A model generated the notes under the pieces. The model was not told the origin of the DNA. It searched no databases and was given only the letters and a program-made list of their open reading frames with translations. 64,000 nt of DNA. Origin: Acorus gramineus (lineage: Eukaryota; Streptophyta; Magnoliopsida; Acorales; Acoraceae). Shown piece by piece: positions 4,251 to 57,749 of the stretch (within the stretch, counting starts at the first letter, position 1; every line of letters begins with the position of its first letter). The position numbers and the translations under genes were made by a program. The stretch covers positions 662,810-726,809 of the forward strand of contig JAUJYN010000040.1 of NCBI GenBank assembly GCA_030737835.1, written 5' to 3'.

Positions 4251-4501
4251 CTCACAATGTAATGCATCTAAAAAAGTACTACTTTTCAAATAAAAGTTGT
4301 TTGCTTGGTTTTATTCATCTTGTTGTGAATATTTTATAAGTATGAAAGCCCATTCGAGGTCGTGCGTGAACTTGGTTATGAACATCACTCTAAGAAAAAG
4401 AAGTTGCGAATAGGCCATGTTCAGGTAGATAAATGAGCACTCTTCGTGATAGAGGTCGCGCTGGGGACGCCCCATCCATCGATTAAGCACTCGAGTAAAA
4501 G

Positions 4502-4868
4502 GCAACAAAAAGTTGAATGCATAGGATACACTCACAAGATGAGGTCGTTAGGAAGTACAAGCTTCCCCTATGCCCACTAAGGTCTCAAAGGGCCAACAAA
4601 AAGTGGAATGCATAGGATACACTCACAAGATGAGGTCATTAGGAAGTACAAGCTTCCCCTATGCCCACTAAGGTCTCAAAGGGCCAACAAAAAGTGGAAT
4701 GCATAGGATACACTCACAAGATGAGGTCGTTAGGAAGTACAAGCTTCCCCTATGCCCACTAAGGTCTCAAAGGGCCAACAAAAAGTGCACTGCATAGGAT
4801 ACACTCACAAGATGAGGTCGTTAGAAAGTACAAGCTACCCCTATCCCCACTAAGGTCTCAAAGGGCCA
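4502..4868 (+). repeat. 91-bp tandem repeat, four copies, in the 3' region of element A
   Basis: The phrase beginning AGTKGAATGCATAGG recurs at 4511, 4602, 4693 and (slightly changed) 4784, an exact 91-bp spacing. The copies differ by only a few bases, so the array is much better preserved than the adjacent pol. It lies between the end of integrase and the antisense ORF. Tandem repeats in this untranslated 3' stretch are common in Tat elements. Confidence 0.9.
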
Positions 4869-11294: not shown

Positions 11295-12220
11295 GTAAGC
11301 TCTTTTTCCTCTTCTTTTTGGCTTAGATGCTTGTTAGGAGGGGGGTTTTGAGGTTGGGTGGTCGTCGGCGGCTGTGGGTGGCTGTCGGAGGTGGTTGGGG
11401 GCGGTCGGAGGCCGTTGGTGGCCGATGGGTGGTGGTAGAGGTGCTCGGGCAAGGTGGATGGTGGTCTCGGGCAGCAGGCAGCACAGGCAGCAGCACAGGC
11501 GCAGCAGGCGGAACAGCTGGCAGGGCGCGCGCGTGCGTGCGTGCGGGCGTGCGCTCGGGTGGAGCTGGAGGCCAGCAGGGCATGCGTGCTGGGTGTGCGG
11601 GTGCTGGGCATGAGGGCGCTGGGCGTGCAGGAGCTGGGCGTGCTGGGCGCTGGGCGATGCTGGGTGCTGGTCGAGTAGGCACTGCGTGTAGGGCGTTGTG
11701 CGGGGTGCACGGGGAGCGCTGCGCAGGGGCGCAGGCATGCTGTGCGCGCGCGCGGCGAGTCGGTGGAGTGCTGGGCGAGCCGGTGGCGCGCGCGGGGGTG
11801 CGCGTGGAGCGCGGAGAGGCAGCGGAGGTGCGCGCGGGGTGCGCGTGGGGCATGGCACTGGGCGCGCGGGGCGTGCGGTGTGCTCGCGGGCCAGCGCGGG
11901 GCGTGCGGGTGCGCGCGGGCTGCTGCGATGGGGCGCAGTGGGCGCGCGATGCACCCAGAAGGCTCGGCGGCGTGTCCAGGCGGCGGGCAGGGGCCCGGCG
12001 GTGCGCCTGGGTGCGCGGGCTGAGGCGCGGCGGTGCATCCGGGGCTCGGGTGGCCGTGCGGGTGGTTGCCGGGGGTGTGGGAGTGAGTCGGGGTGCTCGG
12101 GCTAGCGTGCGTACGGGGCGTATGCACGTTCGCCCGAGTGTTGGGTGTTTATTTGTATGTTTTTGTGTACTTTGTGGTATTTGTGGATTTTACTCACCAA
12201 GTTGATACCCTGTCTTGCAG
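11295..12220 (+). other. Intron-like GC-rich segment inside LTR J
   Basis: Starts CTTG|GTAAGC and ends TACTCACC...TCTTGCAG|ATCTTGACGG. Between the sites lies about 0.9 kb, most of it (11330-12120) extremely GC-rich and CpG-dense. Element E's LTRs read straight from CTTG to ATCTTGACGG at this point (50585/50586 and 55673/55674). The segment therefore behaves as a GT-AG intron. Long frames within it on both strands (11189-12127 minus, 11327-12205 plus) are A/R/G- or P-rich composition artefacts. Confidence 0.75.
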
Positions 12221-18046: not shown

Positions 18047-19216
18047 TGTTATATATGTGTCACTTTTAGCCTTTTGGTCACCTTTGGGACATTTCTGGCA
18101 GTTTTCCAATTTTTCTTTTTTTCGATCGGAACCGCTAAAATTTTGGACTTTTAGCTATCTGCATGAGCTCGAGAGCTCCGATTTAAAATCTAACTGCGCA
18201 TTATGAGTCCTGGTGCCATTTCGAGCCACTCACGAAAATTTCATCGAATTCCGGTAACGTTTTAGAAATTTGGCAGTTCCGAATGGTATTCGGGTTTTGA
18301 CCGATTTGGAATGTCAAAGGGGGGCTTGACCAAGTCAAATTTGACCATTGACTTGGTCAAACCTTTTTGTTTTTCACCAACCCTTTATTTTTTCATTAAT
18401 GAGTGTGTGTGTGTGAGTGTGTGTGTGTGTGTGTGGTCACTAGTGTTAGGCGTCCCCTTCAATCCCCATCTCCCTCTCCCTCTCCCTCTCACTCACTCCT
18501 TCACTCCCTCTTCCTTCCCCATTTGTTCCAAATAGAGGTAGTAGAAGAAGAAGAAGAAGAAGAAGAAAGACCTAGAGAGGGGAAGTGAAGGTATGTGTGT
18601 GTGCAACTTTTGTGTGGTGTTTGTTTTTGTTTCCCTTCTCTCTATCTCCCTCTCATGCCTTCCCTCCCCACCTCTGTTTTCAGCCATCAAGGGCTTGTGA
18701 GTGGCTGAGAAGGTGGTGGTCTTGGTGGTGGCGGTTGTGGTGGTTTGGTGCGCAAAGGGCACCCGAGCTTCCCTCCTTTTTCCTTCCCCTCCTTTTTGGT
18801 AAGTCCTCCTCCTCCCTTAGCTTTGTTTAGATGATTGTTAGGGTTTTTAAGTGGTCAAGCTTGCCTTGCATAGGTGGTAGGGGGTGTGGGTGGGCTGAGG
18901 AGGGGGTGGAAGGGGTTTGGGCGCGCGCGCGCGGGGCCATCCGCCCGCGTGCGCGCGCAGAGGGGCGCTGGCGGGCGCAGACGAGCGCGCTGGCGGGCAC
19001 GCGCGCGCGGGGTTCTGCACGGGCGCTCGGTGCGCGCGAGGCGCGCTGGCTGGACGCGCGCGCACGCGGGCAGGCGCGCGGCAGTGCGCCAAGGGTGCAG
19101 GGGCGCATGCGTGCGTGCGCGTGCGGGGGGCCATGCGTGTGGCTGCCCGAGGGTTCGGGTGGGTGTCGGGGCACTCGGACTCGCGTGCGTACGTGCGTGT
19201 TCGCATGCGTGCTCGC
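18047..19216 (+). mobile_element. G: truncated LTR of the I family inside C's left LTR
   Basis: Starts TGTTATATATGTGTCAC and follows the start of element I's LTR (GCCTTTTGGTCACC, then the TCGATCGGAACCGC block). It includes a splice-donor-like GGTAAGTCC (intron start near 18799) and runs into the GC-rich segment, where C LTR sequence resumes near 19217. The other LTR end and a target duplication are not visible, so the copy is partial. Confidence 0.75.
18406..18437 (+). repeat. (TG)n microsatellite in LTR G
   Basis: Run of GTGTGTG units around 18406-18435. The corresponding (CA)n appears in both LTRs of element I near 32120-32155 and 39350-39378, so it is an inherited LTR feature that varies in length. 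Confidence 0.8.
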
Positions 19217-22426: not shown

Positions 22427-24864
22427 ACTTTTGTCACGCCCCAGGGCGGCCGTCCCCGAGACGTGGCAATAATAAAATATCAGCTATCAATACCTGAGGT
22501 CAATAAAGACTCCAACAACAACACACAAAGTGGCAAATCAAGGATAATGATAACTGACTGAAAAGCGAAAGCATAATATATAAACAATGTCTATAAACCA
22601 AAAACATTATTACAGACTCGAATACACAATCACTGTCCTGTGAGAGCCAAGTCTAGACTAAAGAAAATACAACATGTGCCACATGCACGATTTACAATAC
22701 ATACAATGACTCTAGGACTGCTGACAGCCTCGCACTCGCCACCCGTCGGAAGAACGCTCCACGCCCATAAGACCACGCCACAGGAAAGCTCCACCTCCAC
22801 GCCAAACATTGCCCCTGAAAAGAAACAGTATTCGAGGGGTGAGCTACAAGCTCAGTGAGTGGCTGGAAACCAATCACCATACAACAGTTCAATACATAAC
22901 AATTCCCCTTCAAGGTAAACATGGGTGGAAACCCATGGATAACAGGGTCACGCGGCGGCGCGACCAACCTCACCCTCACCCTCACTCCCGGAGGGAGACT
23001 CTTGGGACTTTTAGGGAGAGACCATACTGTTGGTCAAAGAGACCCGGGATTACTGGTCCACACAACACTACTGGATCACCAACCTCACCCTCACCCTCAC
23101 TCCTAGAGGGAGACTCTTGGGACTTTTGGGGAGAGACCATACCGTTGGTCGAGGAGACCTGGGATTACTGGTCTACGCAACACTACTGGATCATCTACAT
23201 CGAGATAACTGCCCAACGATGTCTTTAAACATCGATGCGAGATCGGACCCAACAACTATGGGAACAGACGAACAACGAATGGGTCGCGAGGCGACGTGTC
23301 TTCACCTCATCCTCACCCTAACTCCCAGAGGGAGACTCTTGGGACTTTTGGAAGAGACTTAGACTGCTCTACACCCTTGGTCCACCGGTAGCCCTTTCCC
23401 CCGCGTAGCCTCTACCTGGTATACTCCCACGATCAGTACACTTTCGAACGCATCAGTGGTACCTACGGATGGGAGCCCTCTGTCAGGACAGCTTTTCCAA
23501 TGCCGGGGAGTTCCTACATCGGATCCAACGAAGGGGAGAATGATTCCACGCTCGGAATATCATTCGTTAACCCTCTCCCGGGTAGCCTCTACTGGGTACA
23601 CTCCCACGATCAGTACGCTCCCGAACGCATCGGTGGTACCTACGGATGGGAGCCTCTGTCAGGACAGCTACAACCCGGCCCTTTTCAACACGGACGACAT
23701 TGGGAGTAAACATTCCATGTTCGCAAAGCGAACCCAATGGAAAAACAACTACTCTCGATAATCACTTATCGAGATATCGAATACTACTATACTCCCACAC
23801 GGTTGCGTCGCTCGGACACAGGGGGGGTGTCACGCCCCAACTATTGGCTTAACAATCCGATAAGATAATGAATTCTCCTGAATTCCACACGAGTGCATCG
23901 CTCGGATGCACGGGGCGATTACATCGCTAGCGCTCTAACTAATAAGGTACAACCCAACAGCGGGTCATACCCACGCCTATTTCAGATAGGCCTGATTAGT
24001 TTTAACATGCACATATATTTTATAGGAGAATTTAATCTTAGTTATGTGCATGAACCATATGCACGATAACATATCAATTAATCATAGGGATACTCCCTAA
24101 TCATAGATTTACATCATAATAAATCATACAACATGCATACATGGTCATTAATCACATAAGCACACAAGGCCTAACTTAAGCATGCGTTGGATATCACCAA
24201 CTTAAAAGAAAGGGTCAAGCGCGATCTCGCGCACTAACAGGTGCATGCCAATATTCCAAACGAACCTGAGTCGAGTAGGAAATCACATCTACTTACTCAG
24301 TTCGTTCAGAGGGAGAGGGCGAGAGAGATCATCATCTCATGAAGCTGGTCATAGCTTTGCCCCATTAGCATGGGCGCAACAACCACACCACGCCCTCGAG
24401 TCTTATTGCAAGGGAATATTAGGCAGGTGCCCGTTATTAACCCAGACTTAATCATGTTCGATATTTCAATTAATATGGTGGGAGTAGTATTACAATACTA
24501 GCTAAGGCATGCCATATTCTATACATCCATACACATTTCAAACAATACATGGCCATACTAGAGGGGCGCGTGCAACACAATCATTCATACATGTATATAA
24601 ACCTAGCATGCAAGATATCTACATATTATAGCTTAAGCATGGCCATACTACTGATCTACACAAGTAGTATAGCTAAGATGCCCCATCGATGCACGACGCG
24701 CGACTACGCTCGTTGAGCGCATCCCGAGAGGGGGGGGATTGGATCGAACCACTCACCGCAACCCGGGTCGTCACGCATCGCGAGGCAACAAGCGAGCCGG
24801 GCAAGCGGGGCAGCACGCATGCAGAGGGAGGCACGCACACGCGGGGCAGCACTCGGGTTGCACA

Positions 24865-25330
24865 GGCAGGGCAAGGCGCGCTGGGCACAGCCGCAGGGAA
24901 CGTCGCAGGACGCACTGGGCACAGTCGCAGGGAACGTCGCAGGACGCACTGGGCACAGTCGCTGGGCGCGCTGGGCACAGTCGCAGGGAACGCCGCAGGA
25001 CGCACTGGGCACAGTTGCTGGGCGCGCTGGGTACAGTCGCAGGGAACGTCGCAGGACACACTGGGCACAGGCGCAGGGCGTGCTGGGAACAGACGCAGGG
25101 CGCGCTGGGCGCAGACGAAGGGCACGCTGCAGGACGCGCTGGGCACGCCGCAGGACGCGCTGGGCACAGACGCAGGGCACGCCTGGCACAGACGCAGGTG
25201 CTGGCAGGGCAGCAGGCAGGGCATGCTGGGCACAGCCGCTGGGCACGCTGGGCACAGCTGCTGGGCAGGAGTGCTGGTGCTGGCAGGGCAGCAGACAGAT
25301 CATGCTGGGCACAGGCAGCACACACAGGGC
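24865..25330 (-). repeat. GC-rich minisatellite in C LTR
   Basis: Repeats of CGCTGGGCACAGTCGCAGGG-like units of about 20 bp, mixed with about 33-bp units containing GGAACGTCGCAGGACGCACT. The long R/G/A- or C/P-rich frames on both strands here follow from the repeat, not from selection for protein. Confidence 0.8.
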
Positions 25331-26383
25331 AGCAGACACTCGGGCACGCCGACACTCCTACACCCAAGCAACCAAGCACACACAAACCAAAACACAAACA
25401 CTTGGCATGCACCACCTCCCAACACACCCAATGAGCTGAAAAACCAGAGGGGAGGGGGGATTATGAGAGGGAGCATGAGAAAGCTAGAGGAGGAGGAAGA
25501 AGAAGAGGCAACAACACCATATATGCACACACAACCACCAACCTTTCTTTCTTGCACTTCCTTCTTGTGCTTCTTCCTCTCCTTCCTTTCCTTCTCACTC
25601 AACAAAGGGGAGCAACCACAAAAAAAAAATGGGGGTTGGATGACATTATATAGACAAAGTGGGGTTCAAAGGACAAAATCGTCCATGACCCGAAATTCTG
25701 TACATGCTTCACTAGAACAGCCATAACTTCCTCAATATAGCTCCGAATTGCACAATTCAAAGTCCACTGGAAAGCCAAGAAGATTATCTACAACTTTCAT
25801 GTTTATGCTCAGATTACATATGTCACGCCCCGGGCGTCCCCGGGACGCGGCAAAGATAATATAATATCAGCTATCAATACCTGAGGTCAATAAGGACACC
25901 AACAACAATACACAAGGTGGCAAAGCAAGATAATGATAACTGAATGAAAAGCGGAAGCATAATATATAACAATGTCTGTAAATCAAAAACATTAATACAG
26001 ACTCGAATACACAATCAATGTCCTGTGAAAGCCAAGTCTAGACCAAAGAAATACGACCTGTGCCACATGCACAATTTACAAAGCTGACAGCCTCGCACAC
26101 GCCACCCGCCAGCAGAACGCTCCACGCCCATAAGACCACACCACAGGAAGCTCCAGCTCCACGCCCAACACTGCCCCCGAAAAGAAACAGTATGCGAGGG
26201 GTGAGCTACAAGCTCAGTGAGTGGCTGGAAACCAATCACCATTCTACAGTTCAATACATAATCAATTTCCTTTCAAGGAAAACATGGGTGGAAACCCATG
26301 GATAAATGGGTCACGCGGCGACGCGACGAACCTCACCCCCACCCTCACTCCCGGAGGGAGTCTTTTGGGACTTATGGGGAGAG

Positions 26384-27936: not shown

Positions 27937-28670
27937 CTGCAAGGTAGGGGCATCCAACTGGTGAGAAACAACACAATTTACATAGAAATTATTAGAAATA
28001 CCCAATACTCGGACAAGCATGCATACGGGCTCGCACGCATGCGAGCACGCACGTACGCACGCGAGTCCGAGTGCCCCGACACCTACCCGAACCCTCGGGC
28101 AGCAACACGCATGGCCCCCCGCACGCGCACGCACGAATGTGCACGCACGCACGCACCCCAGCACCCTCGGCGCACTGCCGCGCGCCCAGACGCGCTGCCG
28201 CACGCGCGCGCACGCTTGCGCGCGCCCGGGCGCACTGCGCGTCCAGTCCACGCGCCCTCGCGCAGCACCCCGCGCATGCCCCAGCACGCGCACGCACACG
28301 CGCGCGCGCACTGGTCCCCAGTCCCGTGCCCAGGCGCACTGCTCCGCGCACGCGCACGCTCTCCCGCATGCCCGCGCGCACTCCCGCGCGCACCCCCGCT
28401 TGTGCCAGCTCCCACGCGCACTCGCACGACCACTCCGCGCGCACTCGCGCACACACGCCCGCGCGCGTCTGCGAGCCCGACTGTGCCTGCCAGCGCGCGC
28501 CTGCGCGCGCACGCTTGCAGACGACCCGAAACGCGCACCCAGCCAACCCTAACCCCATTTTAACCCTTCCCAACCTCTCACACACACCCTAACCCATCTA
28601 CCTAGCATGCATGACCTCCCCAACATCCCCTTAAGCCATGAAAACCAAGAAAAGAAGGGGAGGAGCTCAC
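27937..28670 (-). other. Intron-like GC-rich segment inside LTR H
   Basis: On the minus strand: CCCAAG|GTGAGC at the start (28670) and CTCACC...CTACCTTGCAG|ATCTCG at the end (27937), enclosing a GC- and CpG-rich core (28000-28530). The flanks match those in J, F, I and D. Confidence 0.6.
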
Positions 28671-29988
28671 CTTGGGAGGGGAAAAGAAAGGGGGAGGTTC
28701 GGGGGCCCTCGACGGACCCGAGACCACCTCAACCACCACCACCACCTCGGCCCTCCTCAGCCCTCCAATGGCTGCAAATCAGGGGGGGGGAATCCATTGA
28801 AAAGGGAGCTTGAGAGGAGAGAAGACAAAAAAACAACAACAATACTTACACAAAGATTCACTTGCTCATGCACCTTTTCCTTCTCTTCTCTTAGGGACAT
28901 TAAACCAAACACTTGGTAGGCTTGAATGAGAGAAAGAGAGACAAGAAGCTGAAGGTTGACGTGGGGGTTATGGGAGGGAGAGAGAGAGAGAGAGAGATAT
29001 TTATGCAGCAAATATCTAAAGGGGAATGAAAATGACCTAATCATCCCTTGACTTGAAATTCTGCGCATGCTTCACTGGAACAGCCATAACTTCCTCAATA
29101 TAGCTCCGAGTTGCACAATTCTAAGTCCGTTGGAAAGCTAAGAAGATTATCTACAACTTTCATGTTCATGCTAAGATCAAATAATCCCTCCAGCTATTCC
29201 GAAATTAGAGCTAAACATAAAACAAAGCTACTGCCAGAATTTCCATCCCCGGGGTATACTTGGAAAAATACCCATAACTTTTACTACAAGAATCCAGTTG
29301 ATCTAATTCCACTTTTGTACGAAAGCTAACTCAAAACTGGATATCTCATAATAAAATCATATTTAAACCTCTTCATCTTCGATTTTAACAAAATCAAATC
29401 CAAATACCAAATTGGAAATACATAACTTCGAGAAAAAATTATGCACCCAAATTTTCAAATTAGAGCGCTCCGAATGACACAGGCACAACAAAATAACCCC
29501 TCCAGCTATTCCGAAATGAGAGCTAAACATTGAATAGGGCTGCTGCAAGAATTTTTCATCCCCGGGGTATACTTGGAAAAATACCCATAACTTTTACTAC
29601 ATGAATCCAGTTGATCTAATTCCACTTTTGTATGAAAGCTAACTCAAAACTGAGCATCTCATGATAAAAATTATATTTAAACCTCTTCATCTTGGATTTT
29701 AAAAAAATTAAATCCAAATACCAAATCGAAAATGCATAACTTCTAGGAGAAAAATTATGTAGCCAAATTTTCAATCAGAGCTCTCCGACTCCTGTAGGTG
29801 GCTAAAACCCAAAATTTTAGCGACTCCGATAAAAAAATAAGGCTCCAAATGACACAGGCATAATAGTTATTATTATTATTATTATTATTTTGGTGATTGT
29901 TTCCCCTAGTTGAATGATTTATCAGTGTTTTCTTTGGTTTGATAACTGCCTTGGCGTAATTAGAAATGTTTATTTTTTTTTTGGGTTT

Positions 29989-32529
29989 TGTCACGCCCCA
30001 GGTCAGCCGTCCCCGATACGTGGCAAGTATATATAATATCAGCAGTCTATACAGGAGATCAATAAAATACTCTAAACAACATCAAAAATGACAACACAGA
30101 CAATAAGGTAGCTGACATAATATATACAAATAGCGGAAACTTAAACGACTGAGTCTGTAATTCAAAGACATATTACACACCCGATACATAATCAACTGTC
30201 CTGTGAGAGCCAATATATACAATGACATCCAAATATAAGTATGTGCCCAAGCACGGAATACAATACATACAATCAAGAAGGGGATGCTGATGGCCTCTCA
30301 CTCTTAGAACGTGACGCTGCTCCGCTATTGTTGTGGTGCCTCGGGGAGCTCCTCCTTCAGATCCAACTCAGAAATAACTGGAGGAAAAGAATATGCGAGG
30401 GGTGAGCCAAACGCTCAGTGAATAGCACAACCCATGCATCACAATTCATATTAACCTTAAATAATTCATAGTCCCTAAAACGGGAGCAACTACACATTCT
30501 AGTGGGTCGTTTCATCGCCAACCCACCTCCCCCCCCTCACCCTCACCCTTTCTAGGGGGTGACATGGGCCTCTTGGGGCATACTAGACCGCTCTCCAACC
30601 CTGGTCCACCCGATAGCCTCTCCCACCCTCGTAGCCTCCACCTGGTATACTCCCACTATCAGTACTGTCCGACACATCGGAGGTACCTACGGACGGGAGC
30701 CCTCTATCAGGTCAGCCAACGCCGGGGAGTCCCTACATCGGATCCAACCAAAAGGAGAAGACAGCCTACTCACACGGATATGATCCTCTTGGATCCGTCG
30801 ACACCGATTTTTAACGCTAATAATGTCATGAATTCTCAAGAATTCCTCCAGGGCGCATAACTCAGATGCGGGGAAACATATATTATAACAACAAGGTTAT
30901 AATATTCACTAAGGCATGCTTATGACTATATGCCCTCATTTTGATTTAATTAGATTAAACTAGATGGGAAACATACATAGGTCGGGGCAAGGTGTCTAGG
31001 CATGCATAGGCCTCTATGCATGATATATGGGTGCATATCCCTAGCATACAAGTCTAAGGTGGCATGGATACATCATATTAATCATGCATGCATAGCTTTA
31101 CATTTATTACAAATTAATACGCAATTATGGTGCCCCAGGGGAGGGCAATGCACGCCTACGAGCATCGAACGCCTCCCTACTCGGTTGGATTGTCCCACTC
31201 ACCGAAACCCGGGTCGTCGCGTGACCGTCCGTCAAGATCTGCAAGACATGGCATTCAATATGGTGAGTAAACTACACAAATACATAAGAAATCTACTAGA
31301 AATACCCAACACTCGGACAAGCATGCATACGGACCCGCACGCATGCGAGCACGCGCGTACGCACGCGAGTCCGAGTGCCCCGACACCCTCCCGAACCCTC
31401 GAGCAGCTATATGCATGGCCCCCCGCACGCGCACGCACGAATGCGCACGCCCGCACGCGCCCCTGCGCCCTTGGCGCACTGCCGCGCCCCTGCCCGCGCG
31501 CCCAGGTGCGCGCCCGCACGCACCGGGCGCCCAGCCAGCGAGTACCCGCGCGCACTGCGCGCCTGCGCAGCACTCCACGCGCACGAACGCGTGTCTGCGC
31601 GTACGCGCGAGCGCTCGCTAGCGCACCTGTCTGCGCGCGCCAGCGCCTACCTGCGTGCGCAGACGCACGCGCACGTGCGCGGATGACTCCGCACGCGCGC
31701 CCGAGCCCCTTCCACCCCCTGCTCAGCCCATCCACACCCCCTAACATCCATGCATACCATGCATACCCAATTACACACCCTAAACAAGCATAGGGAGGAG
31801 AACGACTTACCCAAGGAGAGGAAGACAAAGGGAGGGAACTCGGGTGCCCTTCGCGCACCGAATCGCCACCACCACCTCAGCCTCTAGCAAGGCCTAAAGA
31901 TGGCTGAAAACTGGGGGGAGAGGAACCATGAAAGGGAGGTAAACAAAGGGGAAAACAAATCAAAGACCATGGAAAGATAGATCGAAACCCTACCTTTCTT
32001 TTTCCCTTCAATGGATTTCCATTTCAACTTCTCCTACTAGCTCTAATTGGGGAAAATAACAAGAGGGAGAGATGGATTTCTTTGTGTGTGAGAGAGAGAT
32101 GGTGGACGCCCACTTTAGGGCACACACACACACACACTCACACACTCACACACTTAGGTTTTTGGTGTTTGACTTTGAGTCAACCCAACCACACAAACAA
32201 ACAAAACCATTTGACCAAGTCAATGGTCAAAGTCTTCTTTGACTTGGTCAAGTCCCCCTTTGACATTCCCACTTGGTCAAAACCCGGATACGATTCGGAA
32301 CTGCCAAATTCTGAAACGTTACCGGAATTCGATGAAATTTTCGTGAGTGGTTTGAAATGGCACCAGGACACATAATGTGCAGTTAGATTTTCAATCGGAG
32401 TTCTCAAGCTCATGATGATAGCTAAAAGTCCAAAATTTTAGCGGTTCCGATCGAAAAAAGAAAAAGTTGAAAAACTGCCAGAAATGTCCCAAAGGTGACC
32501 AGAAGGCTAAAAGTGACACATATATAACA
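29989..32529 (-). repeat. Element I 3' LTR (left copy)
   Basis: Starts TGTTATATATGTGTCAC and ends GGGGCGTGACA on the minus strand. It includes a GC-rich intron-like segment, CCCTCA runs near 30538-30552, and a (CA)n run near 32120-32150. Confidence 0.92.
31239..31810 (-). other. Intron-like GC-rich segment inside element I LTR
   Basis: On the minus strand: CCTTGG|GTAAGTCG at 31810 and TTACTCACC...TGTCTTGCAG|ATCTTGACGG at 31239. The core 31320-31720 is GC- and CpG-rich. The acceptor side is almost base-identical to that of J and F. Confidence 0.7.
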
Positions 32530-37427: not shown

Positions 37428-39774
37428 TGTCACGCCCCAGGGCGGCCGTCCCCGATACGTGGCAAATATATATAATATCAGCAGTCTATACAGGAGATCA
37501 ATAAAATACTCTAAACAACATCGAAAATGACAACACAGACAATAAGGTAGCTGACATAATATATACAAATAGCGGAAGCTTAAACGACTGAGTCTGTAAT
37601 TCAAAGACATATTACAGACCCGATACATAATCAACTGTCCTGTGAGAGCCAATATACACAATGACATCCAAATACAAGTATGTGCCCAAGCACGGAATAC
37701 AATACATACAATCAAGAAGGGGATGCTGATGGCCTCTCACTCTTAGAACGTGACGCTGCTCCGCTATTGCTGTGGTGCCTCGGGGAGCTCCTCCTTCAGA
37801 TCCAACTCAGAAATAACTGGAGGAAAAGAATATGCGAGGGGTGAGCCACACGCTCAGTGAATAGCACAACCCATGCATCACAATTCATATTAACCTTAAA
37901 TAATTTATAGTCCCTAAAACGGGAGCAACTACACATTCTAGTGGGTCGTTTCATCGCCAACCCACCTCCCCCCTCACCCTCACCCTTTCCGGGGGGTGAC
38001 ATGGGCCTCTTGGGGCATACTAGACCGCTCTCCACCCCTGGTCCACCCGGTAGCCTCTCCCACCCTCGTAGCCTCCACCTGGTATACTCCCACTATCAAT
38101 ACTGTCCGACACATCGGAGGTACCTACGGACGGGAGCCCTCTGTCAGGTCAGCCAACGCCGGGGAGTCCCTACATCGGATCCAACCAAAAGGAGAAGACA
38201 GCCTACTCACACGGATACGATCCTCTTGGATCCGTCGACACCGATTTGTAACGCTAATAATGTCATGAATTCTCAAGAATTCCTCCAGGGCGCATAACTA
38301 AGATGCGGGGAAACATATATTATAACAACAAGGTTATAATATTCTCTAAGGCATGCTTATAACTATATGCTCTCATTTTGATTTAATTAGATTAAACTAG
38401 ATGGGAACATACATAGTTCGGGGCTTGGTGTCTAGGCATGCATAGGCCTCTATACATGATATATGGGTGCATATCCCTAGCACACAAGTCTAAGGTGGCA
38501 TGGATACATCATATTAATCATGCATGCATAGCTTTACATTTATTACAAGTTAATACGCAATTATGGTGCCCCAGGGGAGGGCAATGCATGCCTACGTGCA
38601 TCGAACGCCTCCCTACTGAGTTGGATTGTCCCTACTGAGTTGGATTGTCCGCACGCGCACGCACGAATGCGCACGCCCGCACGCGCCCCTGCGCCCCTGG
38701 CGCACTGCCGCGCCCCTGCCTGCGTGCACTGCACGCCCGCGCAGCACTCCGTGCGCATGCCCGGGCGTCTGCGTGTACGCGCGCGCGCTCGCCAGTGTGC
38801 CCGTCTATGTGCGCCAGCGCCTGCCTGCGCGCGCAGACGCGCGCACACACGCGCGGATGACTCTGCACGCGTGCCTAAGCCCCTTCCACCCCCTCCTCAG
38901 CCCATCCACACCCCCTAACATCCATGCATACCATGCATACCCAATCACACACCCTAAACAAGCATCTAAACAAGCATAGGGAGGAGAAGGACTTACCCAA
39001 GGAGAGGAAGAAAAAGGGAGGGAACTCGGGTGCCCTTCGCGCACCGAATCGCCACCACCAATACCACCACCACCTCAGCCTCTAGCAAGGCCTAAAGATG
39101 ACTGAAAACAGGGGGAGAGGAACCATGAGAGGGAGGTAAACAAAGGGGAAAACAAATCAAAGACCATGGAAAGATAGATCGAAACCCTACCTTTCTTTTT
39201 CCCTTCAATGGCTTTCCATTTCAACTTCTCCTACTAGCTCTAATGGGGGAAAATAACAAGAGGGAGAGATGGATTTCTTTGTGTGTGAGAGAGATGAAGA
39301 AGAGAAGAGAAGAGAAGAGAAGACATGGTGGACTCCCACTTTAGGGCACACACACACACACACACACTCACACACTTAGGCACTATTGTGTTGGTGGCTT
39401 GACTTTGAGTCAACCCAACCACACAAACAAACAAAACCATTTGACCAAGTCAATGGTCAAACTTGACTTTGTAAAATTCATCTTTGACTTGGTCAAGTCC
39501 CCCTTTGACATTCCCACTTGGTCAAAACCCGGATACGATTCGGAACTGCCAAATTCTAAACGTTACTAGAATTCGATGAAATTTTCATGAGTGCTTTGAA
39601 ATGGCACCAGGACACATAATGTGCAGTTAGATTTTCAATCGGAGTTCTCAAGCTCATGATGATAGCTAAAAGTCTAAAATTTTAGCGGTTCTGATCGAAA
39701 AAAAGAAAAAGTTGAAAAACTGCCAGAAATGTCCCAAAGGTGACCAGAAGGCTAAAAGTGACACATATATAACA
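37428..39774 (-). repeat. Element I 5' LTR (right copy)
   Basis: Partner of the left LTR, 2,347 bp against 2,541 bp; the copies differ mainly in the extent of the GC-rich segment. The donor-side GTAAGT of the intron-like segment is present (38996 on the minus strand). Confidence 0.9.
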
Positions 39775-43860: not shown

Positions 43861-44463
43861 GTAAGTCTTCCCTCTTCTTTAGCTAGTTTTTATGCATGTT
43901 TGGGGATTAGGGAGGTCATGCATGTTAGATGAATGGGTTAGGGTGAGTGAGGAGTGAGGGGGAGGGGGTTAAAGGGGTCTGGGCGTGCGCGCGGGTCTGA
44001 GTGAGGGGGAGGGGGTTAAAGGGGTCTGGGCGTGCGCGCGGGTCTATCCGAGCAGTCGGGCTTAGGCGGATGCGTGTGCGTGCGCGCAGGTGCGCGGGTG
44101 CGTGCGGAGCAAGCGCGCTGGTTCGCGCGGAGAAAGCGCGCAGGTTCGCGCGGGCGCTGGTAGCGCGCGGGTCGTGCGTGCGAGTGTGCGCGGGTGGGGT
44201 AGCGAGTCTGGGCGTGCCTGGGCATGCGGCAGGGCGCTAGTGCACGCGCGCGCGTGCGTGCGCGTGCGCGCGCATGCAAGGGCACGCGTGGGGCTGCCCA
44301 GGGGCTCGGGTAGGTGCTGGGGCACTCGGGCATGCGTGCGTACGCGCGTGCTCGCATGCGTGCGAGCCCGTATGCGTGCATGTCTAAGTCTTTGGCATTT
44401 CTAGTTATATTCTAAGAGTTTAATTGTGGCTATACTCACCATTCTGATACCCTTACCTTGCAG
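43861..44463 (+). other. Intron-like GC-rich segment inside LTR D
   Basis: TTTTG|GTAAGTC at 43861 and ATACTCACC...CTTACCTTGCAG|ATCTC at 44463, with the GC-rich core 43980-44360. The core begins with a direct repeat of about 57 bp (near 43940-44050). Confidence 0.65.
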
Positions 44464-46210: not shown

Positions 46211-47248
46211 CTGCAAGACAGGCATTTATACGGTGAGTAAAATGCATAAATACATAAAAAATACTCAAAATACACCAAAAGAACCCAACACTCGGGCAAA
46301 CGTACATACGGCCCGTACGCACGTTAGCCCGAGCACCCCGACTCACTCCCGCACCCCCGGCAACCTGCGCATGGCCACCCGCCCCCGGATGCGCCGCCGC
46401 GCCTCAGCCCGCGCACCCAGGCACACCGCCGGGCCCTTGCCCGCACGCCTGGACCCGCAGCCGAGCCACCCGGGTGCACCGCGCGCCCACTGCTCCCAGC
46501 CGCAGCAGCCCGCGCGCACCCCGCACGCCCCGCGCTGACCCGCGAGCACACCGCAGCCCCGCGCGCACCTCCAGCCTCACCCCACGCGCACCCCGCGTGC
46601 ACTCCTCGTGCACCACCCGCTCGCACCCACTGCTCTCCTCGCGCGCACGCCAGCGCCTCTGCCCAGCGCCCAGCGCTCAGCACCCGCGACCAGCTCCCAG
46701 CGCTCAGCGCCCAACACCCGGGACCCTCACCCAGCGCGCCTACCAGCCTGCCCGCGCTGCTGCCCGCGCTGCCTGCCTGCGCGCATCGCCGAGTGGCCCG
46801 AGCACCGCTCGCCTGCACGCCCGGGCACTGCTCGCCTGATGCCCGAGCACCTCCTGCCCAGCACGCCTGCGCGCCCAGCCTGCCTGCCCGGCCTGCCAGC
46901 GCACACAGCCCAGCCAGCCTACCCCGCACGCCTAGCCCTGCCAGCCCTACCCAGCGCGCCCAGCACGCCCGCAGCATCACCCGAGCGCACGCCGCGCGCA
47001 CGCCTGCGCGCACACACTCGCGCGCCCGGCCACCTGGTGCGCCTGCCTGCTGCGCCCGCTGCCAACTCACCCGGGACTGCTAGCCTCCCTGCCCGAGCTC
47101 CTCTACCACCCACCACCGTCCACCCCAAGGCCTCCGACCACCACCCACAACCCTCCGACGGCCACCCACCGCCGCCGACCACCACCCAACCTCAAATCCA
47201 CCCTCCTAACATACATCTAAGCATGAAAAGAGAGGAAAAAGGGCTTAC
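46211..47248 (-). other. Intron-like GC-rich segment inside LTR F
   Basis: On the minus strand: CCCCTTG|GTAAGCCC at 47248 and TTTTACTCACC...CTGTCTTGCAG|ATCTTGACGG at 46211. The core 46300-47070 is GC-rich. Its exon flanks match J and the joined sequence in E. Confidence 0.75.
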
Positions 47249-50200
47249 CAAGGGGAGGAAGAGATGTTCGGTTGCTCTCCGCGCACCGAAACCTTTCCCC
47301 AAAGGCCTCCAACGCCGGGATCTTCCTTGGCCCTCGAATTGGCCCAAATCAGAGGAGAAAAGAGGGGGGATGGAGGGGCCAATCTTCTCGGAATTCGAAT
47401 CTGAGAACACCGGGGCGTAGATCGGGACCCGATCTACTCTTTCTATGTTATGGGTTTTAAGCTTCAAGCCCTTCAAGGGGCTCAAAACCAAGAAAAATGG
47501 AGAAGGGGAGAGAGAGAGCTCATTTGGGAAGAAGATGAATAGTGCATGAACTTTTAGATCTCACTTATATAAAGTCAAACCACTTAGATTAGGCTTAAGC
47601 TAGGTTAATTAGTGTTTAAGCTAGCTTAGGGGGGCTTAAGTGTGGTTTGACCCTAGTCAACCCAACCACACAAAAGTCCAAAACCAATTGACCAAGTCAA
47701 GGTCCAACATTGACCTAGTCAAAGTCTCCCAATGCCTTTTCGCTCGGTCAAAACCCGGATACGCCCCGAAACTGTGAAATTCAGAACGTTACCGGAATTC
47801 GATGAAATTTTCGTGAGAGGCCTAAAATGACACCAGGACACATAATATGCAGTTATGTTTTCAATCGGAGTCCTCTAACTCAGGACGATAGCTAACAGTC
47901 CAAAAATTTAGCGGTTCCGATCGAAAACCGAAAAAAACAAAAAACTTCCAGAACGCTCCAACGGTTACCAGCAGGTTAAAAGCGACACATATATAACAGA
48001 TCCAACCCTTCGGGATGCGCTCGATGCACGTATTCGTGCATCGCGCCTCCATGGGGCTTCTTTGCACCCTAAATATGCTAGATATTTGCATGCTAGGCTT
48101 GTATAGCTCGTATATTGCGTAGAACCCCCTTTTCTACCATATGCTTGCCTATGGATCATATTCATGTGTGAATTATTATGTATGCATGTGCCGTTCATGT
48201 ATGGGCATGTGTGATGTGTGTTTTTTTTTATGAATGTATAAAATAAGCATGCCTTAGGTAGTCCCTATTTATAGTACTACCTCCCTATGTTAGTATGATT
48301 AACCTGGGTTAATAACCGGGTGCATACTTAATATTCCCTGGTCATAAGACTGGAGGACATGGTATGGTTGTTGCACCTATCTTGTTGGGGCAAAGCTATG
48401 ACCAGCTTCCGAAGAGGATGAGATTTTCCCTCTCTTTCTCTCTCTCTCGCCCTCCCTCTTTGCGTAAACTGGGTAAGTAGATGTGGTTCCTACTTGACTC
48501 AGGTCCGCTTGTTATCGGCATGCACCGGTTGGTGCGCGAGATCGTGCTTAACCCTTCCCTTTTAAGTTGGTGATATCCAACGCATGCTTAAGTTATACCT
48601 TGTATGCATGTTTAAGTGGGCCATACCTTGTATGCATGTTGTATGATTTGTTGTTTATGATGTAAATCCATGTCAGGGGATGCCCTTATAGTCAATTATT
48701 AGGTGATTGTGCATATGGTTCATGCACATAGCTATGACATGATTCTCCTTTAATGTATTTGCGTATGTTAAAACTAATTAGGCCTATCTGAGATAGGCGT
48801 GGGTACGACCCACTGTCGGGATGTACCTCATTAGTTAGAGCGCGAGCGATGTAATCGCCACCCAGCATCCGTGAGATGGACTTGAATGGAATTCAGGAGA
48901 ATTCATTTGTTGTATCTGTTTTATTAAACCGGTGGCTATGGCATTAAGTTAGGCCTGCCAGTGCTAGGCGCGTATATGAACCGCCTGTTGGGTTATATGC
49001 CTTGGGCTTATTTCTGCATGAGAGCAGAGGTAACTCCTCGCATCCGAGCGAGGCACCCGTGTGGGAGTACAAGAGTATTCGATATCATCCATATGTGATT
49101 ATCGAGCGTAGTTGACTTTCCATAGGGTTTGCTTTGCGAACGTGGGGTACTTTCTCTCGACATCATCGTGTGTCGAAAAACCCCAGCGTCGAAGCCGTCC
49201 TGTTTGGGTGCCACCACTTGTAGGTGCTACTGATGCGTATCACGGTACACATCTGGCTGATGTACCGATCGTGGAAGGCCGACAGGTAGAGGCTACGCGG
49301 GAGAGGGCTATCGGATGATATTGCGAGCGTGGAATCATTCTCCCCTTCTTCGGATCCGCGTTGAAGCTACCCGACGTTAAAGCTGTCCTGACAGATGGCT
49401 CCCACCTGTAGGTACTACCGATGCGTTCGACAGATGTACTAATCATGGGAGTATACCAGGTAGAGGCTACTCGGGAGAGGGCTACCAGATGACGAAGGGT
49501 GTAGAACAAAAGGTTTTCTTCCAACAATCCTGTGTCACCCTTAGGGGTGAGGGTGAGGGTGAGAATGAGGTGAAGTCACGTCGCCGCGTGACCCATTCGT
49601 TGTTCGTCCATTCCCATAGTTGTTGGGTCCGGTTATGTATCGATGTTCAAAGACATCGTTGGGCAGTAATCTCGATGTAGATGATCTAGTAGTGTTGTGT
49701 AGACCAGTAATTCCACGTCTCTTCGACCAACGGTATGGTCTCTCTCCAAAATTCCAAGAGTCTTCCTCCGGGAGTGAGGGTGAGGGTGAGGTTGGTCGCG
49801 CCGCCATGTGACCATGTTATCCCTTGGGTTTCCACCCATGTTTTCCTTGAAAGGAAATTGCCTTAACATTAAACTATTGTATTGGTGATTGGTTTCCAGC
49901 CACTCACTGAGCTTGTAGCTCATCCCTCGCATACTGTTTCTTTTTTAGGGGCAGTGTTGGGCGTGGAGCTGGAGCTTCCTTGTGGCGTGGTCTTATGTGT
50001 TATATATGTGTCACTTTTAGCCTGCTGGTAACCGTTGGAGCGTTCTGACAGTTTTTCGTTTTTTTCGGTTTTCGATCGGAACCGCTAATTTTTGGACTGT
50101 TAGCTATCGTCCTGAGTTAGAGAACTCTGATTGGAAATCTAACTGCATATTTGGTGTCCTGGTGCCATTTTAGGCCTCTCACAAAAATTTCATCGAATTC

Positions 50201-50260
50201 CGGTAACGTTTCCAAAATTTCACAGTTCCGGGGCGTATCCGGGTATTTTAAGTGACTCGC

Positions 50261-50268
50261 TATATAAG
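50261..50268 (+). promoter_or_regulatory. Candidate TATA box of element E LTR
   Basis: TATATAAG in the context ACTCGCTATATAAGTGAAATC, about 265 bp into the LTR; repeated at 55349-55356 in the 3' LTR and as the reverse complement in F (47566-47573). The intron-like junction lies about 320 bp downstream, so it would be transcribed. Confidence 0.6.
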
Positions 50269-51387
50269 TGAAATCTAAAATCTGATTGGCACTATTCATC
50301 ATCCCTACCAAAAAGCTTTCTCTCTCCCCTTCTCCATTTTTCAAGCTTTTGAGCCCCTTAGAGCCCTCAAAGCTTAAAACCTAAAGCATAAGAAGTGTAG
50401 ATCGGGTCCCGATCTACACCCCGGTGCTTTCAAATCCGGATTCCGGTGAGTTTTGCCCCTCCATCCCCCCTCTCTTCTTCCCTGATTTGGGCCATTTCGA
50501 AGGCCGAGAGAGATCCCGGCGTTGGAGGCCTTTGGGGAAAGGTTTCGGTGCGCGGAGAGCTACCGGACATCCCTTCCTCCCCTTGATCTTGACGGACGGT
50601 CGCGCGACGACCCGATCTCCGGTGAGTGGGACGACCCAGTTTGGGAGGCGTTACATGCATTTGGGCGTGTACCGTCCTCCCCTGGGCACCATAGTAAATA
50701 TTAACCTGTTTAATATGAAAAGCTATGAAAGCATGATAATCTGTAGTATGCATGCCACCCTAGATTTGTATGCTAGGGACTTATACCCTTGGGACCCGTA
50801 TAAGAGCCATGCACCCGGTTATCATGTTTCCATGCTAGGAAAGCCCCGACCGATGCATGTTCCCATTTAGTTTATTTATTTAAATAAAATGCGAGCATGT
50901 GATTATTAGCCTGTTTTAGCGAATATCATAGGGGAGGGGCCTCGTGAGGACAGCGGTGAGACCCGGGCTAGGGTACTCCGTGTTCCTTGTTTGGTTGTCG
51001 GGATGTCCTATATCGGGACCTCACGCTGCCCTCCCAAGGATTCTTTCCCCGTTAATATTCCAACCTTGTTATAACTATTATGCATGTTCCCCGCATCTTG
51101 GTTATGCGCCCTGGAGGAATTCTGAGGAATTCAGGACATTAGAGTTGTTATGATGTGTTGTCTGCGGATCCGAGTGGATCATATGCGATGGATAGGCTGT
51201 TCTGTTCCCTTCGTTGGATCCGTGTAGAGACTACCCCGGCGTTGGAAAGGTCGTCCCGTGCAGGGGCTCCCATCAGTAGGCGCCTCCTGATTTGGTAGAA
51301 GGACTGTGCTGAATGTGGGAGTGACCAAACGACCTACGGAGTGGGAGAGGCTATCGGTGGACCAAGGGTGACCAACAGCCTAGTCAA

Positions 51388-51640
51388 TCCCAAGAGCCTA
51401 GGTCACCTATTGAGGGTGAGGGTGAGGGTATGGTGGGCCGGCGATGTGGCGACCCACTGGATTGTAAGTCCCAATATCCTTGGTCACCCATTGAGGGTGA
51501 GGGTGAGGGTGTAGCGGGTGGCCGTAGAGACCCGCTGGTTTTGTGTAATTAGTCCCAATATCCTTGGTCACCCATTGAGAGGTGAGGGTGAGGGTGTAGT
51601 GGGTTGGCGGTAGCGACCCACTGGATTGCGGAGTTGTTGC
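51388..51640 (+). repeat. Three ~81-84-bp tandem units with TGAGGG runs in E 5' LTR
   Basis: Units starting TCCCAAGAG or TCCCAATATCC at 51388, 51469 and 51553. Each holds CACCYATTGAG(G)GTGAGGGTGAGGG and then CGACCCACTGG-like sequence. The 3' LTR has the same array near 56480-56730. J has two related units. Confidence 0.85.
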
Positions 51641-52164
51641 CATTTTGTTGCTTGAGTAATGTGATTGTGGATTAAATTATATCTGGTTGTGGTTAATATA
51701 AGCTGTGATGCATGGGTTGTGCTGTTCACTGAGCGTGTGGCTCACCCCTCGCATAATATTTTTCTCCAGTGTCATCTGAGTCGGATCTGGAGGAGGAGCT
51801 CCCTGAGGGACTTCATCAGTAGCGGAGTAGCGCCACGTCCCGCGAGTATCATAGGCTATCAGCATCCCTTTTGCTTGTATGTATTGTATTTCGTGCTTGG
51901 GCACGTGTTTGTGTTGTATTTGGATATCTTTGTATATATTGGCTCTCACAGGACATATGATTATGTATCGAGTCTGTAGTATGTTTTGATTACAGATTCA
52001 GTCTTTTAGCTTCCGCATTTGGTGTGTATATCATGTCAGCCCTGCTTTTGTCTGTGTTGTCATTTTAGCTGTTGTGTGAGTATGTTATTGAACTCCTGTT
52101 TACTGATATCATATATACACTTGCCGCGTCCCGGGGTCGGCCGGCCCTGGGGCGTGACAAAAGT

Positions 52165-52176
52165 TGGTATCAGAGC
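52165..52176 (+). other. Element E primer binding site (tRNA-iMet)
   Basis: TGGTATCAGAGC, five bases after the 5' LTR end. Confidence 0.92.
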
Positions 52177-55085: not shown

Positions 55086-57253
55086 TGTTATATATGTGTC
55101 ACTTTTAGCCTGCTGGTAACCGTTGGAGCGTTCTGGCAGTTTTTCATTTTTTTCGGTTTTCGATCGGAACCGCTAATTTTTGGACTGTTAGCTATCGTCC
55201 TGAGTTAGAGAACTCCGATTGAAAATCTAACTGCATATTTGGTGTCCTGGTGCCATTTTAGGCCTCTCACGAAAATTTCATCGAATTCCGGTAACGTTTC
55301 CGAAATTTCACAGTTCCGGGGCGTATCCGGGTATTTTAAGTGACTCGCTATATAAGTGAAATCTAAAATCTGATTGGCACTATTCATCATCCCTACCAAA
55401 AAGCTTTCTCTCTCCCCTTCTCCATTTTTCAAGCTTTTGAGCCCCTTAGAGCCCTCAAAGCTTAAAACCTAAAGCATAAGAAGTGTAGATCGGGTCCCGA
55501 TCTACACCCCGGTGCTTTCAAATCCGGATTCCGGCGAGTTTTGCCCCTCCATCCCCCCTCTCTTCTTCCCTGATTTGGGCCATTTCGAAGGCCGAGAGAG
55601 ATCCCGGCGTTGGAGGCCTTTGGGGAAAGGTTTCGGTGCGCGGAGAGCTACCGGACATCCCTTCCTCCCCTTGATCTTGACGGACGGTCGCGCGACGACC
55701 CGATCTCCGGTGAGTGGGACGATCCAACCCAGTTTGGGAGGCGTTACATGCATTTGGGCGTGTACCGTCCTCCCCTGGGCACCATAGTAAATGTTAACCT
55801 GTTTAATATGAAAAGCTATGAAAGCATGATAATCTGTAGTATGCATGCCACCCTAGATTTGTATGCTAGGGACTTATACCCTTGGGACCCGTATAAGAGC
55901 CATGCACCCTGTTATCATGTTTCCATTCTAGGAAAGCCCCGACCGATGCATGTTCCCATTTAGTTTATTTATTTAAATAAAATGCGAGCATGTGATTATT
56001 AGCCTGTTTTAGCGAATATCATAGGGGAGGGGCCTCGCGAGGACAGCGGTGAGACCCGGGCTAGGGTACTCCGTGTTCCTTGTTTGGTTGTCGGGATGTC
56101 CTATATCGGGACCTCACGCTGCCCTCCCAAGGATTCTTTCCCCGTTAATATTCCAACCTCGTTATAACTATTATGCATGTTCCCCGCATCTTGGTTATGC
56201 GCCCTAGAGGAATTATGAGGAATTCAGGACATTAGAGTTGGTAGGATGTGTTGTCTGCGGATCCGAGTGGATCATATGCGATGGATAGGCTGTTCTGTTC
56301 CCTTCGTTGGATCCGTGTAGAGACTACCCCGGCATTGGAAAGGTCGTCCCGTGCAGGGGCTCCCATCAGTAGGCGCCTCCTGATTTGGTAGAAGGACTGT
56401 GCTGAATGTGGGAGTGACCAAACGACCTACGGAGTGGGAGAGGCTATCGGTGGACCAAGGGTGACCAACAGCCTAGTCAATCCCAAGAGCCTAGGTCACC
56501 TATTGAGGGTGAGGGTGAGGGTATGGTGGGCCGGCGATGTGGCGACCCACTGGATTGTAAGTCCCAATATCCTTGGTCACCCATTGAGGGTGAGGGTGAG
56601 GGTGTAGCGGGTTGGCGGTAGCGACCCGTTGGTTTTGTGTAGTTAGTCCCAATATCCTTGGTCACCCATTGAGAGGTGAGGGTGAGGGTGTGGTGGGTTA
56701 GCGGTAGCGACCCACTGGATTGCGGAGTTGTTGCCATTTTGTGGCTTGAGTAATGTGATTGTGGATTAAATTATATCTGGTTGTGGTTAATATAAGCTGT
56801 GATGCATGGGTTGTGCTGTTCACTGAGCGTGTGGCTCACCCCTCGCATAATATTTTTCTCCAGTGTCATCTGAGTCGGATCTGGAGGAGGAGCTCCCTGA
56901 GGGACTTCATCAGTAGCGGAGTAGCGCCACGTCCCGCGAGTATCATAGGCTATCAGCATCCCTTTTGCTTGTATGTATTGTATTTCGTGCTTGGGCACGT
57001 GTTTGTGTTGTATTTGGATATCTTTGTATATATTGGCTGTCACAGGACATATGATTATGTATCGAGTTTGTAGTATGTTTTGATTATAGATTCAGTCTTT
57101 TAGCTTCCGCATTTGGTGTGTATATCATGTCAGCCCTGCTTTTGTCTGTGTTGTCATTTTAGATGTTGTGTGAGTATGTTATTGAACTCCTGTTTACTGA
57201 TATCATATATACACTTGCCGCGTCCCGGGGTCGGCTGGCCCTGGGGCGTGACA
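55086..57253 (+). repeat. Element E 3' LTR (2,168 bp)
   Basis: Partner of 49998-52159. It has the same CCCCTTG|ATCTTGACGG junction (55673/55674), the same conserved block (56027-56132) and the same tandem units. Confidence 0.93.
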
Positions 57254-57749
57254 TTATGTGAGTGGATCGTTCTATCCAGCGGGTGGCAAGTGCAAGGTTG
57301 TCAGCAGTCCTAGAGTCATTTTATGTATTGTAAATCTTGCATGTTGCACAGGTTGTATTTTATTTGGACTAGACTTGGCTCTCACAGGATAGTGATTGTG
57401 TAATTGAGTTTGTAAATAATGTTTTTGGTTTACAAACATTGTTGATATCTTATGCTTCCGCTTTTCAGTCAGTTATCATTTATCTTTGCCTTGCCATCTT
57501 GTGTGTTGTTGTTGGAGTCTTTGTTGATCTCAGGTATTAATAGTTGATACTTTATATATTGTCGCATCTCGGGGACGGCCACTCTGGGGCGTGACAGGTT
57601 CTTCCTTGAGAACTTCTCGTAATCATGGCAAAGGCGTGGAAATCGAGATCATTGAAGATTTGCCACTGAAATCTTCTGTAGAAATCGAGGGAAAGCTGGC
57701 GTATGGAACATGATCCAGAGCCCAACTGGAGGATCCTCAGAGAGAGCCG

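Follow-up and report, generated by a model that had tools for sequence, protein, structure and literature searches.

A probable spliced intron inside the long terminal repeats of a group of plant retrotransposons, and genomic copies that lack it exactly

The long terminal repeats (LTRs) of an abundant group of retrotransposons in Acorus gramineus very probably contain a spliced intron, and spliced RNA has very probably been copied back into DNA, as judged from genomic sequence. The putative intron would be of the U2 spliceosomal type, 0.57-1.3 kb long and G-rich, situated in the transcribed leader inside the LTR of a Tekay-like (Ty3/gypsy) group, with exon 2 running to the LTR end and followed by the primer binding site and gag. 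Exact excision products are present in the genome as paired LTRs and one solo LTR, some with TSDs, beside near-identical relatives that carry the intron. That the stretch has been lost exactly, and repeatedly, points to splicing of RNA and its subsequent reverse transcription as the mechanism that fits. This evidence is independent of any conservation of the splice ends, and the proposal of the initial annotation, that these LTRs carry a transcribed leader intron, is supported by excision products in four lineages.

The window, which is the whole 64-kb stretch of DNA analysed here, holds five GT...AG stretches within LTRs, in the copies named J, D, F, H and I (Table 1), and direct reading found each of them at the bases first reported. 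The five introns are 63-71% GC and 41-48% G, and in every one the A of a CTCACC motif, which presumably suits the plant branch point (yUnAy), stands 23-25 nt before the last intron base. An exact-pattern search of the window for CTCACC-N15-32-TTGCAG-N0-4-ATCT returned five matches, being exactly these five LTR stretches and no other. The LTR list of the initial annotation was right about the five copies and had missed the intronless element K, as well as damaged or unclear LTRs at 18799 (+), 38996 (-) and 25700-24650 (-). The first of these, an LTR fragment at 18540-19212 (+), shows an exon 1-like end and has GTAAGTCC at 18799; other sequence takes over at about 19213. The second, at 38580-39060 (-), is the other LTR of the I element, which keeps GTAAGT at 38996 and lacks the 3' half of the intron together with the first part of exon 2. 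The join bears a short duplication, and this LTR is an example of DNA deletion at this place. The third, at 24650-25700 (-), has a TATA-like box, a GC-rich core of CTG/CCCAGC-like repeats and exon 2-like sequence from 24776, with no clear GT...AG ends, and is either a departure from the pattern or a degenerate copy. Another insertion interrupts exon 2 of copy D at about 44517 (+); its sequence starts TGTCACGCCC and resembles an inverted end of a different LTR family.

Table 1. Candidate LTR introns, associated motifs and the intronless element K in the window
Feature	Copy	Positions	Strand	Detail	Basis
Candidate LTR intron	J	11295..12220	+	926 nt, GTAAGC...TTGCAG, then ATCT	read directly
Candidate LTR intron	D	43861..44463	+	603 nt, GTAAGT...TTGCAG	read directly
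Candidate LTR intron	F	46211..47248	-	1038 nt, GTAAGC...TTGCAG	read directly
Candidate LTR intron	H	27937..28670	-	734 nt, GTGAGC...TTGCAG	read directly
Candidate LTR intron	I	31239..31810	-	572 nt, GTAAGT...TTGCAG	read directly
Branch-point-like motif	J	12193..12198	+	CTCACC	pattern search
Branch-point-like motif	D	44435	+	CTCACC	pattern search
Branch-point-like motif	F	46237	-	CTCACC	pattern search
Branch-point-like motif	I	31267	-	CTCACC	pattern search
Branch-point-like motif	H	27965	-	CTCACC	pattern search
Likely hairpin	J	12095..12139	+	81 nt before 3' splice site	fold z -4.27
Likely hairpin	D	44324..44389	+	74 nt before 3' splice site; outer stem decayed	
Likely hairpin	F	46290..46334	-	79 nt before 3' splice site	
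Likely hairpin	H	28007..28072	-	70 nt before 3' splice site	
Likely hairpin	I	31311..31376	-	72 nt before 3' splice site	fold z -3.05
TATA box	K	50261..50267	+	TATATAA, 325 nt upstream of exon 1 end	
TATA box	F	47565..47571	-	TATATAA, 323 nt upstream of exon 1 end	
TATA-like box	H	28998..29005	-	CATAAATA, 335 nt upstream of exon 1 end	
5' LTR without intron	K	49998..52159	+	2162 nt; exon-exon junction 50585/50586	read directly
Primer binding site	K	52165..52176	+	TGGTATCAGAGC	read directly
3' LTR without intron	K	55086..57253	+	2168 nt; junction 55673/55674	read directly

Element K represents a full insertion, of which the paired LTRs, the perfect TSD TTATG (49993-49997 and 57254-57258), the PPT and the primer binding site, which we take to be the complement of initiator tRNA-Met, were all read directly. 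Both of its LTRs have CCCCTTG followed by ATCTTGACGG at the junction (CCCCTTG/ATCTTG), with exon 1 joined to exon 2, and in the repeat comparison of the window they align with F as far as the base that directly precedes the intron (47249 paired with 50585) and contain no GC-rich block. The two LTRs differ by a K2P distance of 0.0135, which at a substitution rate of 1.3e-8 per site per year gives an insertion age of about 0.5 million years. Among the copies read, the closest relative of K (L022) is 98.5% identical and carries an intron of 856 nt; the K2P distance between the two is 0.0155 upstream and 0.0143 downstream of the junction, and no gap of at least 5 nt occurs across the 588 nt before it. 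Because this distance is close to that between the LTRs of K itself, the intron loss fits the element's own cycle or one just before, and the sequences suggest that the parent of K probably had the intron.

The same junction recurs throughout the genome, which was searched over 398.6 Mb in 137 contigs. With the junction region of K as the query, 25 of the 40 matches listed run continuously across the junction and 15 stop or start there. Thirty loci were cut out, 10 of the 40 places being given no locus; 23 lack the intron (two are the LTRs of K itself) and seven have an intron of 821-870 nt, and of all copies read, those nearest to K are among these seven. Queries made of joined exon 1 and exon 2 gave continuous matches across the junction in 26 of the 40 matches listed for H, 19 of 40 for I and 9 of 40 for D. 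Those fetched for reading were 20 of the 26 H-type matches, all 19 I-type matches plus one from a 20-base pattern search, and all nine D-type matches. Read by letter, with point substitutions allowed, 71 of the 72 candidate intronless LTRs possess the exact junction, in four lineages: J/F/K (23/23, two being those of K), H (19/20), I (20/20) and D (9/9). The sole non-exact case, the H-type copy L107, has lost most of the intron and keeps a tail including TTGCAG, which is an ordinary deletion. Three I-type intronless copies whose exon 1 ends CTTGT(A/T)G were counted as exact because an intron-bearing relative (L068) reads CTTGTTG/GTAAG. One base, a G, is ambiguous at the junction.

The 20-base junction pattern CCCTTGATCTTGACGGACGG, with at most two mismatches, has 32 matches in the genome, and its reversed control has none. 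When an intronless copy (L027) served as the query, 29 of the 40 listed relatives, with 96-99% identity in exon 1, stop at the end of that exon, 26 of them at its last base and three ten nt short; four of these relatives were read and have introns of 895-1151 nt. With the D query, 31 of the 40 listed matches stop within 2 nt of the exon 1 end. Left out of the reading were two copies with a 5' splice site and a 3' motif unmatched in the fetched piece (L171, L175), eight duplicates (L031-L038) and the copies L089-L096, whose fetched pieces missed the splice site.

Trees built from the flanks, with the intron excluded, distribute the intronless state over several branches. The J/F/K tree (58 rows, 23 intronless) requires at least 11 state changes, seven of them forced by starred, that is well-supported, branches; the I tree (50 rows, 20 intronless) requires at least six, two forced; and the H/D tree (41 rows, 28 intronless), whose bootstrap is not settled, at least eight, three forced. 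These trees rest on 175-332 columns of hand-chosen copies, and their change counts do not distinguish gains from losses. The apparent number of losses could also be raised if templates were switched between co-packaged RNAs. We therefore speak of many losses and give no number, given the short trees, the chosen copies and possible template switching. One starred clade consists of nine intronless J/F/K-type LTRs (L004, L007-L010, L014, L017, L018 and L030), which suggests that intronless elements can amplify, by their own means or in trans. The intron would thus not be strictly needed, at least in trans.

Reverse transcription leads one to expect that both LTRs of one element agree. Among same-strand neighbours 4-16 kb apart, 13 pairs are both intronless, 11 are both intron-bearing and two are mixed; after dropping three pairs that are cross-family judging by the queries that retrieved them (the two mixed and one with introns on both sides), all 23 same-family neighbours agree in intron state. 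This test is biased, since 40 matches were listed per query and intron-bearing partners come far down the list for an intronless query, so that mixed pairs could be missed, and true LTR pairing was checked only for K and for elements on contigs C65 and C54, the latter two by TSD. The TSDs are AGATT for the C65 element, AGACT for the outer pair on C54 and GTCTA for an intronless solo LTR (L006); another intronless copy (L012) has no perfect TSD. Three intronless LTRs stand in a row on C54 (729435-744314; L013, L020, L015), the outer two flanked by AGACT and the middle one preceded by a PPT-like run, and this array is probably a tandem retrotransposon. The LTR-pair identities of these elements (0.73 on C65; 0.64 for L013/L020 and 0.63 for L015/L020 on C54) were set aside as low, probably owing to indels or inserts. 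A tally of 342 places, which leaves out C52:15520 and C3:2828236, gives 262 with the intron and 80 without; the sample is biased and 80 of 342 is not a frequency, as joined queries favour intronless copies and 40 matches were scored per query, and part of the intron labels rest on the match, while the fetched copies were read.

The position of the promoter bears on whether the intron belongs to the transcript of the element. A TATA or TATA-like box lies 323-335 nt before the end of exon 1 in F, H and K, so the intron would sit in the leader; J has a weaker TATA-like TAATAAAG at about the same place, and none was found in the LTRs of I and D, where it was looked for. Transcription would start about 30 nt after the TATA box, giving an exon 1 of about 290 nt. 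We consider it unlikely, for this reason among others, that splicing is mainly accidental, affecting the 3' LTR copy or a read-through transcript, and that the intron has no role in the expression of the element. The same sites are present in both LTRs, so any spliced template would give two intronless LTRs, and the apparent amplification of an intronless lineage also favours that explanation. It is opposed by the TATA boxes upstream of exon 1 and by the splice sites, branch point and hairpin, which have long been retained in divergent lineages.

The assignment of the group as likely Tekay-like (Ty3/gypsy) was derived from pol domains, a shared LTR end and the initial annotation. The domains were examined in the I element, where one open reading frame of 897 aa encodes reverse transcriptase, RNase H and integrase in the Ty3/gypsy order (RT-RNaseH-INT). 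At the C-terminus of its integrase the PF00385 chromodomain match, over residues 849-892 of 896, reaches 20.1 bits and so falls short of the cut-off of 25.1.

Ordinary DNA deletion is a highly improbable source of the intronless copies. The GC-rich block would in that case be a deletion hotspot, acting through slippage or illegitimate recombination, and its core is indeed full of short repeats; deletions do occur there, in the other LTR of the I element and in L107. However, these two ordinary deletions have other end points, and 71 of the 72 candidates share one GT...AG end pair, a figure to be read with the fact that junction-built queries under-sample scattered deletions. Moreover, the microhomology CTTG in J/F/K (exon 1 end and TCTTGCAG) would leave CAG, which is seen in 0 of the 23 J/F/K-type copies.

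The conservation of the splice ends is a separate line, which alone would not settle the intron question. The initial annotation had read the ends as selected and the middle as not. In 73 intron-bearing copies (72 outside the window and I), picked among the best-scoring matches and not at random, a GTRAG start is found in 72, an AG end in 72 (67 being TTGCAG) and CTCACC in 71; the ends are thus kept, but the reading is only partly right, as the middle contains a conserved hairpin. Between the five window copies the mean identity is 0.83 for the first 6 nt of the intron, 0.69 for its last 45 nt and 0.43 in the middle, as against 0.47 for the last 45 nt of exon 1 and 0.69 for the first 45 nt of exon 2, so that the 3' end of the intron is no better conserved here than the adjoining exon. 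In 30 copies of the I family the share of the commonest base is 0.994 at the 5' splice site and 0.961 at the 3' splice site, compared with 0.895 in the core, 0.935 at the exon 1 end and 0.970 at the exon 2 start. In this comparison of ends with core, of the kind proposed with the initial annotation, the ends in this family stand only modestly above the flanks, and the 3' site is no better kept than the exon 2 start; the core values are uncorrected for CpG decay, and little weight is given to the comparison.

In each of the five window copies the hairpin, with arms of CTCGG(A/G)C...GCGTGCGTAC and GTATG...(T/C)CCGAG, precedes the 3' splice site by 70-81 nt; it is likely a real structure. In J and I it folds better than dinucleotide shuffles (z of -4.27 and -3.05). 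An alignment of 110 copies was made, 50 from earlier loci and the window and 60 newly fetched (20 D, 20 H, 10 J and 10 F), in which 92.7% of the pair cells of a 20-pair stem, with J as reference, are standard-paired. On 58 distinct rows the pairing is 92.5% against a shuffle mean of 90.7%, reached by 0 of 500 shuffles, and sliding the stem by 1-3 columns reduces it to 12-59%. Six pairs show double changes, a number reached by 87 of 500 shuffles; double-change cells number 33 against a shuffle mean of 11.2, reached by none of 500. The clearest switch is one stem pair with A-U in 58, G-C in 29 and G-U in 23 copies, and in D copies the outer stem is broken. The covariation support for the hairpin is thus limited.

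Such a hairpin suggests some other function, and it could be held that the ends are conserved by common descent only and that the stretch is a regulatory or structural segment of the LTR, rarely or never spliced. The modest margin by which conservation of the I-family ends exceeds that of the exons (0.96-0.99 against 0.94-0.97) agrees with this view, but the view leaves the recurrent exact excision products unaccounted for, and we give it very little credence. It is scarcely conceivable that LTRs without the intron represent the ancestral state and that the GC-rich stretch was inserted later, as a transposon or captured DNA: exact presence or absence alone gives no polarity, nor do tree changes distinguish gains from losses, yet the lineages have the end sequences and hairpin of the stretch in common at one and the same site, intronless copies are nested within groups of intron-bearing copies with flank identity of up to 99%, no TSD or inverted ends were seen at the stretch borders in the copies read, and homologous inserts would have to have been gained independently, many times over, at a single base.

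A spliced LTR intron would operate as follows. RNA driven by the LTR would carry the intron in its leader, and the spliceosome would remove it from part of this RNA. Most templates for reverse transcription would be unspliced, as otherwise the intron would be gone, and the spliced RNA would be mainly mRNA; the chances for and against such a division between mRNA and genome seem to us about even. Occasional leakage of spliced RNA into packaging would then produce the intronless elements. The hairpin near the branch point may tune or slow splicing, or act as a tag by which unspliced RNA is exported or packaged, and its part in the division is conjectural and rather doubtful. Leader introns can raise expression through intron-mediated enhancement, and the LTR intron may do so for the element. 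The intron could be a kept fate switch, where hairpin-marked unspliced RNA is exported and packaged as genome and spliced RNA acts as mRNA, which is possible but which we would not presume. If this were true, intronless elements would constitute a genomic record of the leak rate of the switch, and the export or packaging elements of retroviruses would have a plant equivalent in the hairpin.

An intron wholly inside the LTR would be new among intron-bearing retroelements, and searches of open-access full-text literature found no plant intron inside an LTR. Introns located in the terminal repeat were reportedly described in Penelope-like elements by Arkhipova et al. in 2003; these are retroelements with introns, as here, but they are not LTR retrotransposons. 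In HTLV-1 and BLV the splice donor lies inside R, and the splice acceptor of retroviruses lies far downstream, outside the LTR, whereas here the whole intron is inside it. Retroviral leader splicing, as in HIV-1 and RSV, nevertheless resembles the reading proposed here, in that the same transcript can serve either as unspliced genome or as spliced mRNA. Of the RNA packaged by HIV-1 and RSV, as much as 10% may be spliced, according to the part of the account available to us (PMC5086612), and the replication of Penelope-like elements is thought to allow intron retention, again in the portion available (PMC3846280).

Plant LTR retrotransposons are generally without introns, with exceptions that include Ogre and EVADE, as stated in the available part of a 2025 review (PMC12786077). 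Ogre of pea and Medicago is a Ty3/gypsy LTR retrotransposon with a spliceosomal intron that is removed from part of its RNAs (PMC6317226, PMC12786077, both in part); that intron separates gag-pro from the rest of pol (PMC6317226), whereas the present one would lie within the LTR, upstream of the primer binding site. In EVADE, BARE1 and the sunflower elements Tyran and Varan, splicing yields a short-gag RNA, and the likeness is that splicing sets a short translated RNA apart from the full-length RNA; the available sections of these accounts describe no LTR intron (PMC12786077, PMC7730604). The EVADE splice removes coding sequence, unlike the LTR intron here (PMC12786077, in part), and in sunflower Tekay elements are absent from the expressed set, by the portion available (PMC7730604). 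The rice Tekay/Del chromoviruses Retrosat2, RIRE3 and RIRE8 have long LTRs, that of Retrosat2 having a TATA box within U3, together with poly(A) signals and an R region some 2 kb long, and in the main text of that source 'intron' occurs 0 times and 'splic' once (PMC3485330, seen in part). The last 10 bp of the Retrosat2 and RIRE8 LTRs, GGGCGTGACA, equal the LTR end read here, while the LTR start in J, F, I and K, TGTTATATATG, differs from TGTCACACCC (PMC3485330).

An element that copies itself through RNA should lose introns fast, and here an intron would be present in both LTRs, lost exactly many times and still carried. This opens to testing the means by which unspliced RNA is reserved for the genome of a plant retroelement. 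The intronless copies represent a natural retrotransposition reporter. Such an LTR would be a ready promoter with a leader intron and could reshape the expression of neighbouring genes. An annotation that ignores the LTR intron may misplace the R/U5 borders and miss spliced reads. An Rfam search of the whole window at gathering thresholds returned 0 matches. Elsewhere in the window, at 4412-4866, there is a tandem array with a 91-bp unit, the copies of which are 62-98% identical to the reference copy.
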